DNA from: Opitutaceae bacterium
Lineage (GTDB): Bacteria > Verrucomicrobiota > Verrucomicrobiia > Opitutales > Opitutaceae
Assembly: GCA_002694885.1 (NCBI GenBank)
Contig: NZNM01000114.1
Coordinates: forward strand, 1 to 64,000
Direction of reading: 5' to 3'
Length of the DNA stretch: 64,000 nucleotides
The notes under the pieces: model-generated
Told to the model about the DNA's origin: nothing
The model's input: the letters and a program-made list of their open reading frames with translations, nothing else
Databases searched by the model: none
Shown here: in pieces, positions 11,231-16,054 of the stretch
Position numbering within the stretch: the stretch's first letter is position 1
Layout: every line of letters starts with the position of its first letter
Position numbers and translations under genes: made by a program

Positions 11231-11572
11231 ATGGACCCAAGAATCTACTATTTCCTACATGTCTTCTCAATCATCCTACTGACGGGATTCACATTCGCCA
11301 TAGCGGCGAGCCCGCAAAAGGGGAAAAAGAAATTCATGGCTATAATAACCGGGATTCTGTCTTTAGTCGCCCTGGTTGCTGGAGCTGGACTCATGTCGAA
11401 AATGCACAACAACAACTGGGGCCAAGGTTGGGTGATCATAAAGATTCTGGCTTGGCTCTTTGTTTCGGGTCTGGGTGGAATGGCCTATAAGAAGTCCAAG
11501 TCTTTCGTGCAAACCGGATTGATTGTCGCGGTAGGAGTGGCTGTGTACATGGTTTATTTTCGACCCTTCTGA
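11231..11572 (+). CDS. Small four-helix membrane protein
   Basis: 113 residues from the ATG at 11231 (MDPRIYYFLHVFSIILLTGF). Four hydrophobic helices with short loops (IYYFLHVFSIILLTGFTFAI, MAIITGILSLVALVAGAGLM, GWVIIKILAWLFVSGLGGMA, SFVQTGLIVAVGVAVYMVYF). The layout recalls the SirB2 family and other small haem-binding or electron-transfer membrane proteins, with a histidine in helix 1, but no motif is decisive. Its TGA overlaps the ATG of the DNA polymerase gene (TGATG), so translation is probably coupled although no functional link is evident. Confidence 0.65.
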   Translation: MDPRIYYFLHVFSIILLTGFTFAIAASPQKGKKKFMAIITGILSLVALVAGAGLMSKMHNNNWGQGWVIIKILAWLFVSGLGGMAYKKSKSFVQTGLIVAVGVAVYMVYFRPF

Positions 11573-13770
11573 TGTTGGGAGGGGACTCAGGGCGGTCGCT
11601 ATGCGGCTTGTGGATTAGTCCTGAGGGACAGGCTTATTTAGCATGGGATAGGGGCAAAGGTCCTAGAGAATCCCAAACCGTATCCTTTGCGCCGTTTGTG
11701 TGGGCTCTAGAACGGGCGGTTGACGATCTTATTGTTGGCGCCGATGTATCCAAACTTTCTGGAGAAGCGCCATACAATCGATTAGTAAAGTTCGAAGATA
11801 TTGAGGACTATAAGGATTTCGTTAAGCAAAAGGGAAGGTCGAATTCCATTGATTGGATACGCAATCTGGAACAGCAGTATCTTTTGTCGCGAGAAGAGAG
11901 ACTGTATGCTGGTTTTTCGTTTAATGCGCTTCGAAGAATGCAGCTCGATATTGAGACCGCATGTTCGGAAGAAGGTGGCTTCAGTGACTCGAGGCGCCCG
12001 AACGATCGAATCATTGCCATAGGGTTGAAGCTCGGGCAAAGCATCGAGACGATTTCTTTAGATTCGTTTACGGATGAATCGGAGAGAGCGTTGCTTCAGC
12101 GTCTGAACGAGAAATTCGCAGAATGGGATCCGGATGTCGTTGAAGGGCACAACATATTCAAATTCGATCTTGATTATCTGAGAACAAGAGCCAAGCGCTT
12201 GAAAATACCCATTAATTGGGGACGTTTCGGACAAACGGCCACCTTTCGTAAAAGTCGATTGAGAGTGGCCGAACGCTGGATAGATTACCCGCGATGCGAC
12301 TTGCCTGGCAGAGCGGTCGTGGATACATTTCTTTTAACACAGGTATACGACGCAACTGCGAGAGAGCTCATGTCTTACGGTCTAAAGGAAGTTGCCCGAT
12401 TCCTAGGCGTAACGCCCGAAGATGGTGGTGGCCGCACCTATATTGAGGGGACGAAGATCCAAGAAGCGTTTATGGAAGACCATGATCGCTTCCTCAGCTA
12501 CCTGGAAGACGACTTAAGAGAGACGGGGGGAGTCGCCGATCGCTTGTTGCCTACCTATTTTGAGCAGACGAAAGCGTTTCCGACGACCTTGCAGGAGGCG
12601 TGCCTGAGAGGAACGGCGAGCAAAGTGGATCTTGTTTTTCAGGAAAAGTATTTTCACTTGAAGGCGGCTTGCCCGATGCCAGCTGAACCTCGCCCGTACG
12701 AAGGGGCTTACACCGCGAGCTTCAAGGAAGGCGTATTCAAGCAAGTCCTGCATTTCGATGTGGCCTCTCTGTATCCCAGCATTTTGTTGATGATGGGGCG
12801 TAATCCTCATACTGATACAGAAGGAGTTTTTATTCCAACATTGCGTGGGCTTAGGGACTACAGGATGAAGTACAAAAAACTAGCCCAGGAATCGAAAGAC
12901 GAGAAAATGGCGTTGGAGTACGAAGCGCGTCAAAGCAGCTTCAAGATTCTGATCAATTCGTTCTACGGGTACTTAGGTTTTTCAGGGGCTCGATTCGGGG
13001 ATGCAGAGTTGGCGTCGCAAGTTGCGGCGAAAGGAAGAGAGATCCTCAAATCCTTGATAACCTATTTCGAGAGCGTCGGTTGTTCGCCGCTAGAGGCTGA
13101 TACTGACGGAATTTACGTCGAAGCTAGCGAGTACTACGATAGCGCTGTTTCGCTTCTTGCGGATGCCCAATCGATTCTGCCCGAAGGAATTGAACTCGAG
13201 TACGATGGCAGATATGAATCCATGTTTTGCTACAAAGCGAAAAACTACGCATTGTACGACGGGTCGCGCGTTACGATCAGGGGATCGGCCATGCGATCTC
13301 GTGGGCTAGAACCCTTTTTGCGCTCGTTGACGCAATCGCTAATCTGGTATCTGCTCGGAGCCTCTGAGGAAGACCCAGCGGTTTTAGCTTCGGAAATGGA
13401 GTCTAAAATAAAGTCAGGCTCGTGTCCGATCGAACTATTGGCTAAATCCGAAATACTTAGCCAGAATCCCGAGGCTTATCAAAAGAAGATTGAGGCGGGA
13501 GGAAAGCCGAGGCGAGCCTCCGCAGAGGTGGCCTTGCTTTTAGGGGAAAGAGTGCGCATGGGGGATCGTGTTTCCTATTATATCGGTCCCAAAGAAAAGG
13601 GTCAGACGGCTAATTGGCAGCGAGCCCAGCCGATAGAGTGGTATGGCAATGACGGTCCTCCCTACGATCCAACTTTCTATTTGAAGAAGCTTGATGATTG
13701 GAGAAAGCGTTACGACCCCTTTCATGTTCAGTTGGGAAAAAATGGGGCTCAAAAAGAGCTTTTCTCCTGA
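11572..13770 (+). CDS. Family B DNA polymerase with proofreading domain
   Basis: 732 residues, shorter than E. coli Pol II (783). The 3'-5' exonuclease motifs are present in order: Exo I (QLDIETA), Exo II (EGHNIFKFDLDYL) and Exo III (YLEDDLRET). Polymerase motifs follow: A (FDVASLYPSIL), B (KILINSFYGYLG) and C (EADTDGIYVE), then the conserved AKNYALYDG and RGSAMRSRG. Both active sites look intact. Family B enzymes in bacteria usually serve repair and translesion synthesis; here that role is inferred. The ATG overlaps the previous stop. The 3' end overlaps the convergent gene by 22 bp. Confidence 0.9.
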   Translation: MLGGDSGRSLCGLWISPEGQAYLAWDRGKGPRESQTVSFAPFVWALERAVDDLIVGADVSKLSGEAPYNRLVKFEDIEDYKDFVKQKGRSNSIDWIRNLEQQYLLSREERLYAGFSFNALRRMQLDIETACSEEGGFSDSRRPNDRIIAIGLKLGQSIETISLDSFTDESERALLQRLNEKFAEWDPDVVEGHNIFKFDLDYLRTRAKRLKIPINWGRFGQTATFRKSRLRVAERWIDYPRCDLPGRAVVDTFLLTQVYDATARELMSYGLKEVARFLGVTPEDGGGRTYIEGTKIQEAFMEDHDRFLSYLEDDLRETGGVADRLLPTYFEQTKAFPTTLQEACLRGTASKVDLVFQEKYFHLKAACPMPAEPRPYEGAYTASFKEGVFKQVLHFDVASLYPSILLMMGRNPHTDTEGVFIPTLRGLRDYRMKYKKLAQESKDEKMALEYEARQSSFKILINSFYGYLGFSGARFGDAELASQVAAKGREILKSLITYFESVGCSPLEADTDGIYVEASEYYDSAVSLLADAQSILPEGIELEYDGRYESMFCYKAKNYALYDGSRVTIRGSAMRSRGLEPFLRSLTQSLIWYLLGASEEDPAVLASEMESKIKSGSCPIELLAKSEILSQNPEAYQKKIEAGGKPRRASAEVALLLGERVRMGDRVSYYIGPKEKGQTANWQRAQPIEWYGNDGPPYDPTFYLKKLDDWRKRYDPFHVQLGKNGAQKELFS

Positions 13771-15419
13771 TTGTTTGGCAATTTCCGTTCCAAGAAAAAG
13801 ATGATTGGCGAATTCGGATTTCCAGAAGGGTTGGTGAGCGAGCGTTTTGCGAATTTCTCGCAATCGATATTCTGATACCAGTCCAATATCGATTTCGTTT
13901 CTGCATCACCACCATGGTGTCCTGGATAGGCAACGATGCTGAGAATGCCTCCTGGAAGCAACAGAGGGAGCGAAGACTCGAGTGCTCGAATGGTAGTTTC
14001 GGCTTGTGTGATAACGGATTTTTCTCCGTTGGGCAGGTAGCCTAGGTTAAACACGATCGCGTTAGCCGAAGTTTTTACTGAAATGAAATTTTGGATACGT
14101 GAATGGCAACTATTGATAAGAGTAACTCGGTTGGACGAATCGGCTTTCGCAAGATTTCTCCGTGTGGATTCAATAGCGTCTCCCTGTATGTCAAATGCGT
14201 ATACATGCCCTTGTGGACCTACTGCTTTGGCGAGCCATAATGTATCATGTCCATTGCCTGCGGTCGCGTCAATAGCGATATCGCCAAATGACAAATTCTG
14301 AAGAACGTATTGGCGGGCGATCTCGAAGGCGATCCAACGCTTGCTTGGTTTCGAGTTTTCTTTCCAAAAACGTTGAGGCGACGATTCGATAGGCAGGGCG
14401 TAGTTGGAGTAGATGTGGTCATGTAGACGTTGAGCGAAAAGAGGAATTTGCGTCGCTCCTTTGCTGCCGAAACCGTTGAAAACGAAAATTTGTTTCAGTT
14501 CCGGGTGCTGACCTACAATCGGTTTCGCTCCTGGTATAGAGGGCCTGATGCCAGAAGCGATCTCAGACCATTCCCATTGATCGTTTAGGTAGCGCTGCAG
14601 GAAAGTCTCTAGCTCTAATACGCTTTCCGGGTCGGGTGATTCATCGAGCTTGTCCCAGATGTAGGTTGCTCCCACGTGTATGGAGCCGTCGTTTCGAGGA
14701 ATGAGAAAGAACCTATCGACGATTGCTGTATTAGAAAGATCGATATTCGAATTGATCTTTCCGATAACGCCTTTGGCCGGCCGAAAGGGAACGAATGATA
14801 GCCAGGGGTTTTCGTTTCCGAGCCATCCTTCAGCGAAAATCGCTATTGGGGCTCGATTTGAATTCCAGGAAACTGTTTCGGGCCCAATCTCGATGTTTGA
14901 GTAGTCGAATCGTTCGTTCTTCAGATTGCCGCGCGCTTCGAGGTCAACGTGAAGCTGCTTCAGCAAGTGAGGAATATCTAGATAGCCGCCTCCTTGAATG
15001 GCAAAAAATGGATCTGTTATCGATGGGGTCTTGATTGCCTCGCCAGTGGAATCGTTTTGAATCCAATGACTATAAGCCTCGAGTTTGGACTTCGTAGACC
15101 AAATTTCGCGGCTTTCAGGATCGCTTAATAGACGCAAAATGGTCCTAGGGAAAAATAAGTTTGTCCGAAATTGGCGTCCCAGTTTTTGGTAGGTTTCGGT
15201 GGCAAAAGGAATCTGCTCACTGGCCTCCCAAACGAGGTTCATGCGTTTGCCTCCTATCGGATTCACCAATCCAGCGGCTACATGGGAACAGTTTGATAGG
15301 TCTCGTTTGTTGACGAGCAAAGGATTCTTACCTTTTTCGATAAATGTCCAGGCTAGTAGAGTGCCCGCGAGACCTCCGCCAAAAATGATGCAATCGAATT
15401 CTCTAGCTACGCTTGCCAT
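13749..15419 (-). CDS. FAD-dependent oxidoreductase fused to MnmM/YtqB-type methyltransferase
   Basis: 556 residues in two domains. Residues 1-345 form a DAO-type FAD oxidoreductase: dinucleotide-binding loop IIFGGGLAGTLLAW (11-24), HVAAGLVNPIGGKRM (46-60), and a C-terminal FAD closure FNGFGSKGATQIP (314-326). Residues ~360-547 form a class I methyltransferase of the YtqB/MnmM (PF06962) type: SAM loop IDATAGNGHDT (383-393), the family hallmark FNLGYLPNGEK (457-467), and YPGHHGG (499-505). In E. coli, MnmC joins an FAD oxidase (cmnm5U to nm5U) to an unrelated methyltransferase (nm5U to mnm5U) in the opposite order. MnmM does the methylation in Bacillus. I infer a single protein doing both last steps of mnm5(s2)U34 synthesis on tRNA. 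The neighbouring queG also modifies a wobble base. No frameshift is needed; the frame is continuous. Confidence 0.85.
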   Translation of the reverse strand: MASVAREFDCIIFGGGLAGTLLAWTFIEKGKNPLLVNKRDLSNCSHVAAGLVNPIGGKRMNLVWEASEQIPFATETYQKLGRQFRTNLFFPRTILRLLSDPESREIWSTKSKLEAYSHWIQNDSTGEAIKTPSITDPFFAIQGGGYLDIPHLLKQLHVDLEARGNLKNERFDYSNIEIGPETVSWNSNRAPIAIFAEGWLGNENPWLSFVPFRPAKGVIGKINSNIDLSNTAIVDRFFLIPRNDGSIHVGATYIWDKLDESPDPESVLELETFLQRYLNDQWEWSEIASGIRPSIPGAKPIVGQHPELKQIFVFNGFGSKGATQIPLFAQRLHDHIYSNYALPIESSPQRFWKENSKPSKRWIAFEIARQYVLQNLSFGDIAIDATAGNGHDTLWLAKAVGPQGHVYAFDIQGDAIESTRRNLAKADSSNRVTLINSCHSRIQNFISVKTSANAIVFNLGYLPNGEKSVITQAETTIRALESSLPLLLPGGILSIVAYPGHHGGDAETKSILDWYQNIDCEKFAKRSLTNPSGNPNSPIIFFLERKLPNNQEKSSF

Positions 15420-15502: not shown

Positions 15503-16054
15503 ATGCCAGTCGAACGAAAACAGTTTCACCCTAACCTCTACTTGGTAGGATTTATGGGCACGGGCAAGAGCGCAGTTGGTCGAGCCGTGGCCCAGCGTCT
15601 CGATTTTCAGTTCATAGATACCGATCAAGGGATTGAAGAGAGCCAAGGGCGTAGCATTAAGGAAATCTTCGAAACGGATGGCGAAGCGGCCTTTCGAAAT
15701 ATGGAGAAATCCTTTGTGCAGGGTGGTCACCCGAACGACTGCTGCGTGGTTTCGTGCGGCGGTGGATTGATTGCCCAGCCAGGGATTCTGGAAATTGTTC
15801 AATCAAAAGGTCCGGTAGTGTGCCTCTTGGCATCGCCTCAAACCGTTTGGGAAAGAGTAAAAGGCAACCGGAAGCGTCCGTTACTAAATGTCGAGGATCC
15901 GCTGGCAAAAATTGAGGAGCTCCTTAAAGAGAGAGAACCGATTTACAGGAAAGCGGGAACGGAGGTGCTGACGGATGCGAGGACGATAGCGGATGTCGCG
16001 GCTCACGTAGTTCGCATCTACAAATCGGAAACTAGATCGTGGCCGCCAAAATGA
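15503..16054 (+). CDS. aroK: Shikimate kinase
   Basis: 183 residues. Walker A loop GFMGTGKSAVGR (16-27), shikimate-binding DTD (FIDTDQGIE), the GEAAFRNME arginine region, the GGG turn (SCGGGLIAQP) and the lid NRKRPLL. It phosphorylates shikimate at O3 in the chorismate pathway, cytoplasmic. The start is the ATG at 15503. It is divergent from the FAD/methyltransferase gene across 83 bp, which must hold both promoters. Its TGA overlaps the ATG of queG (ATGA), so the two form an operon despite unrelated pathways. Confidence 0.95.
   Translation: MPVERKQFHPNLYLVGFMGTGKSAVGRAVAQRLDFQFIDTDQGIEESQGRSIKEIFETDGEAAFRNMEKSFVQGGHPNDCCVVSCGGGLIAQPGILEIVQSKGPVVCLLASPQTVWERVKGNRKRPLLNVEDPLAKIEELLKEREPIYRKAGTEVLTDARTIADVAAHVVRIYKSETRSWPPK

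Follow-up and report, generated by a model that had tools for sequence, protein, structure and literature searches.

Which enzyme prepares the substrate of the tRNA methyltransferase MnmM? In Bacillus and Streptococcus, the step before MnmM is assigned to the radical S-adenosylmethionine (SAM) protein MnmL. A gene in the first 64,000 nucleotides of contig NZNM01000114.1 of an Opitutaceae bacterium (assembly GCA_002694885.1; this whole stretch is called the window below) raises the question in another form, for it joins a flavin adenine dinucleotide (FAD) oxidoreductase domain to an MnmM-type methyltransferase domain in one protein. As of 2023, no MnmC(o)-like enzyme was known either for organisms that have MnmM or for those that have an orphan MnmC(m) (PMC9976899). 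Here we propose that the fusion is probably a bifunctional wobble-uridine enzyme: its FAD domain would convert 5-carboxymethylaminomethyl-(2-thio)uridine at tRNA position 34, cmnm5(s2)U34, to the 5-aminomethyl form, nm5(s2)U34, and its MnmM domain would carry the product on to the 5-methylaminomethyl form, mnm5(s2)U34.

The gene runs on the minus strand from an ATG at 15419 to 13749, encodes 556 amino acids and contains no internal stop, while the plus strand over the same interval is full of stops. An earlier reading, made from the letters of the window without database searches (the sequence-only reading), had described one continuous frame of this length with an N-terminal DAO-type FAD domain. 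Both points hold, with the frame on the minus strand: Pfam places DAO (PF01266) at residues 9-332 (2.5e-23) and rRNA_methylase (PF06962) at residues 406-542 (5.3e-40). AlphaFold2 predicted two confident domains, with a mean predicted local distance difference test score (pLDDT) of 91.7, and a low-confidence linker at residues 355-361.

The same fusion occurs in three further Opitutales-type genomes: Opitutales UBA7389 (L002) and an Opitutaceae metagenome-assembled genome (MAG; L003), both from a scan of the genome collection, and G224 (locus L116), a genome of the same genus that was added by a survey of the phylum. In all three, DAO is followed by PF06962 in a single frame, and the FAD domain is 46-69% identical to that of the window. 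Because these other genomes carry the same two-domain open reading frame (ORF), a frame artefact, a chance ORF and an assembly artefact can all be set aside. The four fusions form one clade in the tree of FAD domains (100/100) and again in the tree of MnmM domains (100/99), with the window and L002 paired in both. Judged from these trees, the fusion arose from a single origin.

By profile and by residue, the C-terminal domain is a member of the MnmM family. It reaches 189.8 bits with the NCBIfam MnmM equivalog NF053511 (cut-off 135; 193.2 bits in the genome search), and the three motifs from which the sequence-only reading had called this domain MnmM-type, IDATAGNGHDT, FNLGYLPNGEK and YPGHHGG, are all found in the protein. 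Over the aligned stretch, the fusion conserves D34, N101, Y104, K110, Y141, G143 and H144 of Bacillus subtilis MnmM (bsMnmM). Mutation of D34, N101, Y104, K110, Y141 or H144, residues of U33/U34 recognition and catalysis, abolished the activity of bsMnmM (PMC9976899). K11 of bsMnmM falls outside the aligned stretch; an alignment with the S. aureus protein puts an Arg at the equivalent position of the fusion. In the L003 fusion, an R takes the place of H144.

If the C-terminal domain is MnmM, what supplies it with an amine? Profile searches of the window's own genome found a single MnmM, the fusion itself (NF053511). They found no PF05430 protein (the MnmC2 methylase, absent from the fusion protein too) and no TIGR01212 protein (MnmL-type radical SAM) over the cut-off, the best score being 27 bits against 180. 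The absence of mnmC, mnmL and free mnmM, which the sequence-only reading had set as a check, is borne out by these searches. Two other strong DAO matches are present, a GlpD-like protein and a PuuB-like protein whose gene lies next to a glutamine-synthetase-like one (named by inspection). No TIGR01212 or PF05430 protein over the cut-off was found in the genomes with a fusion or gene pair that came from the collection, some of which, as MAGs, may be incomplete.

The FAD domain itself carries features that bear on its substrate. Arg302 of glycine oxidase, which binds the substrate carboxylate, aligns with Arg292 of the fusion, and the position is invariant in 80 rows of the FAD family, five MnmC and three glycine oxidase (ThiO) sequences. 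In MnmC, this residue (R567) is more than 98% conserved (PMC3648344). At the signature site, the FAD family reads G-[SAT]-[KR]-G and MnmC G-[SA]-R-G, against [FY]-R-N-G in ThiO; G318-S-K-G321 of the fusion aligns with G-S-R-G of MnmC (Gly619), with K in place of R.

We placed the domain in a maximum-likelihood tree of 62 sequences, with five MnmC, three ThiO and three other proteins as references. The FAD family is monophyletic (99/99) and stands apart from the MnmC1 clade (100/99), and a 97/85 split separates these two from ThiO, DadA, SolA and a PuuB-like protein. A grouping with amino-acid oxidases, which the sequence-only reading had named as evidence against itself, was thus not recovered: the domain splits from ThiO, DadA and the N-methyltryptophan/putrescine-type oxidases. 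That reading had also called the oxidase MnmC(o)-like, which stands as regards the side of the tree and falls as regards membership, since the domain neither groups within the MnmC1 clade nor reaches the MnmC1 cut-off. On this phylogeny, the FAD domain is of its own, sister-like clade, related to MnmC(o) but distinct from it and not an MnmC(o) equivalog.

To see how far the two halves travel together, we turned to 289 genomes of the phylum Verrucomicrobiota. MnmM occurs in 46 of them and the FAD family in 62. Every one of the 46 MnmM genomes has the FAD family, against 16 of the other 243 (Fisher p 4e-40, with no correction for kinship), and a TIGR01212 protein is found in four of the 46 and in none of the other 42. 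The two genes are fused in two MnmM genomes, adjacent in 12, where mnmM follows immediately after a FAD gene of the same strand, and unlinked in 32; because these 32 are not adjacent, the association does not reflect linkage only. Adjacent same-strand pairs in this order were also found in two Gammaproteobacteria and in three Kapaibacterium genomes. Spacing is tight, with a possible overlap of four bases in L004, L111, L120 and L108 and of one base in L030, and with the genes one base apart in L010 and L115. Given the adjacent pairs in 12 of the 46 and in the gammaproteobacterial and Kapaibacterium genomes, the fusion is a 'Rosetta stone' for the partnership of the FAD family with MnmM, and the less common form of a partnership that is widespread as two genes. 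From the gene order, it looks like the end state of a gene pair that was already coupled.

Outside the phylum sample, a chromosome-sized record of Neisseria gonorrhoeae with MnmM gave no match in a tblastn search with one FAD-family member. MnmM may therefore occur elsewhere without the FAD family, which need not be its sole partner. In the plasmid collection, to which the Neisseria record belongs, MnmM was found only as a stand-alone protein. Two genomes (G048 and G005) are missing both genes though their congeners have both, which is consistent with joint loss; two others (G194 and G146) have the FAD gene and no MnmM. Extra N-terminal stretches on four MnmM frames (L011, L095, L114 and L080) have no FAD-family match and read like a spurious open frame upstream of the true start. 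In Methyloprofundus (L007), a 565-aa ORF that overlaps mnmM encodes a flavoprotein of the fumarate-reductase/succinate-dehydrogenase type, not a member of the FAD family.

Several observations weigh against the proposed function. The FAD domain falls far below the MnmC1 cut-off (TIGR03197; 57.9 versus 174.2 bits, its relatives scoring 27-80 bits) and scores slightly higher with ThiO (TIGR02352; 67.7 bits, its best NCBIfam score). The solved folds nearest to its AlphaFold2 model (pLDDT 92) are glycine oxidases (Z 35.4), with MnmC close behind (Z 32.9), in both cases over the whole length. The tree has a small reference set and long branches. Ten of the 16 genomes that have the FAD family without MnmM have a PF05430 protein. 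In the methylase half, the U35-contacting residues Q163, Q176 and N178 of bsMnmM are not conserved in the fusion (C520, P535 and a gap). Alanine mutants of these contacts retain 20-60% of the activity of bsMnmM, so the residues are not essential (PMC9976899); as these weaker contacts differ, the specificity of the fusion's MnmM domain for U35 tRNAs may differ too.

The profile scores and the nearest folds would suit another reading, in which the FAD domain acts as glycine oxidase (ThiO) or as another oxidase of free amino acids, fused for co-expression or by accident, and nm5 comes from MnmEG and ammonium; nm5U can indeed come directly from MnmEG (PMC9976899). We consider this improbable. The ThiO score is below its cut-off of 250.8 bits, as it is for all eleven FAD-family members scanned, the domain has the MnmC-type motif where ThiO has its own, and a tree in which the family was forced to group with ThiO was rejected (approximately unbiased (AU) test, p = 0.0195). 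Nor would a role in thiamine synthesis predict that the family tracks MnmM in 46 of 46 genomes. The predicted fold fits oxidation of an N-carboxymethyl amine, and it is equally compatible with ThiO and with MnmC. Given its descent, its motif, its partner and the absence of alternative enzymes, we infer that cmnm5(s2)U34 is the most likely substrate of the FAD domain and that this organism most likely carries out both reactions.

The proposed route would start from cmnm5(s2)U34 made by MnmE and MnmG, which we assume to be present. Arg292 would hold the glycine-like carboxylate of the substrate in the FAD domain, which would oxidise the carboxymethylamino group to an imine; hydrolysis would then release nm5(s2)U34 and glyoxylate, and O2 or some other acceptor would reoxidise the reduced FAD. 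The MnmM domain would flip out U34 and transfer a methyl group from SAM to the amine, yielding mnm5(s2)U34. The FAD domain might instead act on tRNA U34 in another way, for example by removing the methyl group of mnm5 as an eraser or by turning nm5 into a formyl form: many N-methyl and N-carboxymethyl amines (such as sarcosine and dimethylglycine) are substrates of DAO-fold enzymes, and any U34 reaction would suit a fusion with MnmM. The invariant arginine, however, suits cmnm5 and not mnm5, and with its FAD domain so employed the genome would be left without a known enzyme for the cmnm5 to nm5 step; we hold this to be no likelier than a glycine oxidase. Least probable of all, and very unlikely, is that the fused FAD domain performs no catalysis and offers MnmM a scaffold for tRNA binding or dimerisation. 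The modelled linker looks flexible, and nothing specific favours such a role; the fusions retain the FAD-binding glycines, Arg292 and GSKG, and the split forms encode the FAD protein as a free enzyme. The features on which the oxidase-methylase assignment draws are located in Table 1.

Table 1. Position of the fusion gene, its domains and its motifs in the window.
Feature	Position	Strand	Basis and remarks
FAD oxidoreductase-MnmM fusion, whole gene	13749..15419	-	556 aa; ATG at 15419, stop 13749-13751; ORF, Pfam and NCBIfam
DAO-type FAD oxidase domain (residues 1-345) from a distinct family; candidate for cmnm5(s2)U34 oxidation	14385..15419	-	PF01266; own clade beside MnmC1; AlphaFold2
FAD-binding GxGxxG segment IFGGGLAG, residues 12-19	15363..15386	-	No variation at G14, G16, A18 and G19 among 37 relatives
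Arg292, matching Arg567 of E. coli MnmC and Arg302 of glycine oxidase	14544..14546	-	Invariant in alignment
G-S-K-G, residues 318-321, MnmC-type signature	14457..14468	-	Alignment with MnmC and ThiO
Interdomain linker, residues 346-364	14328..14384	-	Low AlphaFold2 confidence at 355-361
MnmM methyltransferase domain, residues 365-545	13785..14327	-	NF053511 over cut-off
SAM motif IDATAGNGHDT, residues 383-393	14241..14273	-	D392 = bsMnmM D34; alignment; PMC9976899
Catalytic/tRNA motif FNLGYLPNGEK, residues 457-467	14019..14051	-	N458 = N101, Y461 = Y104, K467 = K110; alignment; PMC9976899
YPGHHGG, residues 498-504	13908..13928	-	Y498 = Y141, G500 = G143, H501 = H144; alignment

Two genes, both named by inspection, flank the fusion. 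A polB-like gene for a family-B-type DNA polymerase (11572-13770, plus strand) is convergent with it and overlaps its last 22 bases (13749-13770), and a shikimate-kinase-like gene (aroK) lies upstream at 15503 and is divergent. Both aroK and polB flank the fusion gene in L002 and L003 as well, and in L002, L003 and L116 the gene that converges on the fusion likewise encodes a family-B-type polymerase.

The fusion names a concrete candidate oxidase, one that all sampled MnmM genomes of the phylum have and that is widespread in Bacteroidota. An MnmL-type match is missing from most of the phylum's MnmM genomes. In Bacteroides, MnmC(m) is reported as an orphan, with MnmC(o) absent (PMC9976899), and 96 of the 198 Bacteroidota genomes sampled have the FAD family. 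MnmC2 was not found within 1.5 kb of 29 FAD loci in Bacteroidota, where the neighbours checked were gldN, cmk, ispD and metallo-hydrolases; in several genomes (L228, L231 and L241 among the loci) the FAD-family gene adjoins gldN. On presence only, the family is a candidate oxidase in Bacteroidota too. That it is a general cmnm5(s2)U34 oxidase, partnered by MnmM in Verrucomicrobiota (unlinked genes included) and some Gammaproteobacteria and by orphan MnmC(m) in Bacteroidota, is a tentative extension, about as likely as not.

Our literature searches returned no description of a DAO-MnmM fusion or of the FAD family. Jaroch et al. 2024 (J Bacteriol) reportedly defined MnmL, its abstract is said to mention fusion proteins, and we regard the novelty of the FAD-MnmM fusion as provisional.

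This pathway has seen several recombinations of its oxidase and methylase modules. One more combination of an oxidase-step module with a methylase is an MnmL-type radical SAM protein (TIGR01212; PF04055 and PF16199) fused to a PF05430 MnmC2 domain in an ORF of about 600-650 aa (L191, G049:C27:110500-113400, 512-2455); similar frames occur in dozens of genomes, and 63 of 71 genomes have TIGR01212 together with PF05430. In the family and order to which the window belongs, genomes also carry a tRNA-guanine transglycosylase (PF01702) joined with a divergent PF05430 methyltransferase domain in an ORF of about 700 aa (L192, 1716-3830, minus strand; L193, 1344-3500, minus; L194, 134-2200, plus).

How, then, does the fusion compare with known systems? 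Like E. coli MnmC (MnmC(o)/MnmC(m); TIGR03197 and PF05430), it combines a FAD oxidase with a SAM methylase in one protein, with a predicted path from cmnm5 through nm5 to mnm5, and it shares with MnmC a related FAD fold, the common Arg and G-S-[RK]-G. Unlike MnmC, it has MnmM (PF06962) and not PF05430 as its methylase, puts the oxidase first, and has a FAD domain outside the MnmC1 clade and cut-off. The sequence-only reading had seen here a convergent solution in reversed order; the domain order and the methylase family agree with that, whereas homology to MnmC(o), not convergence, seems to account for the oxidase half. ThiO shares the DAO fold (Z 35) and amine oxidation beside a carboxylate, but the FAD domain scores below its cut-off, has another signature motif, forms a separate clade and is tied to MnmM. 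The methylase domain matches MnmM (YtqB, NF053511; B. subtilis, S. aureus and plants) over the cut-off and in its catalytic residues, whereas the characterised MnmMs are single-domain proteins. The setting also departs from that of Bacillus, where the preceding step is assigned to MnmL, a protein that has no match over the cut-off in the window's genome. MnmC and MnmL are both listed in PMC12548931. The FAD domain probably fills the same pathway step as MnmL (YtqA, a radical SAM protein within TIGR01212), but it comes from an unrelated enzyme family.

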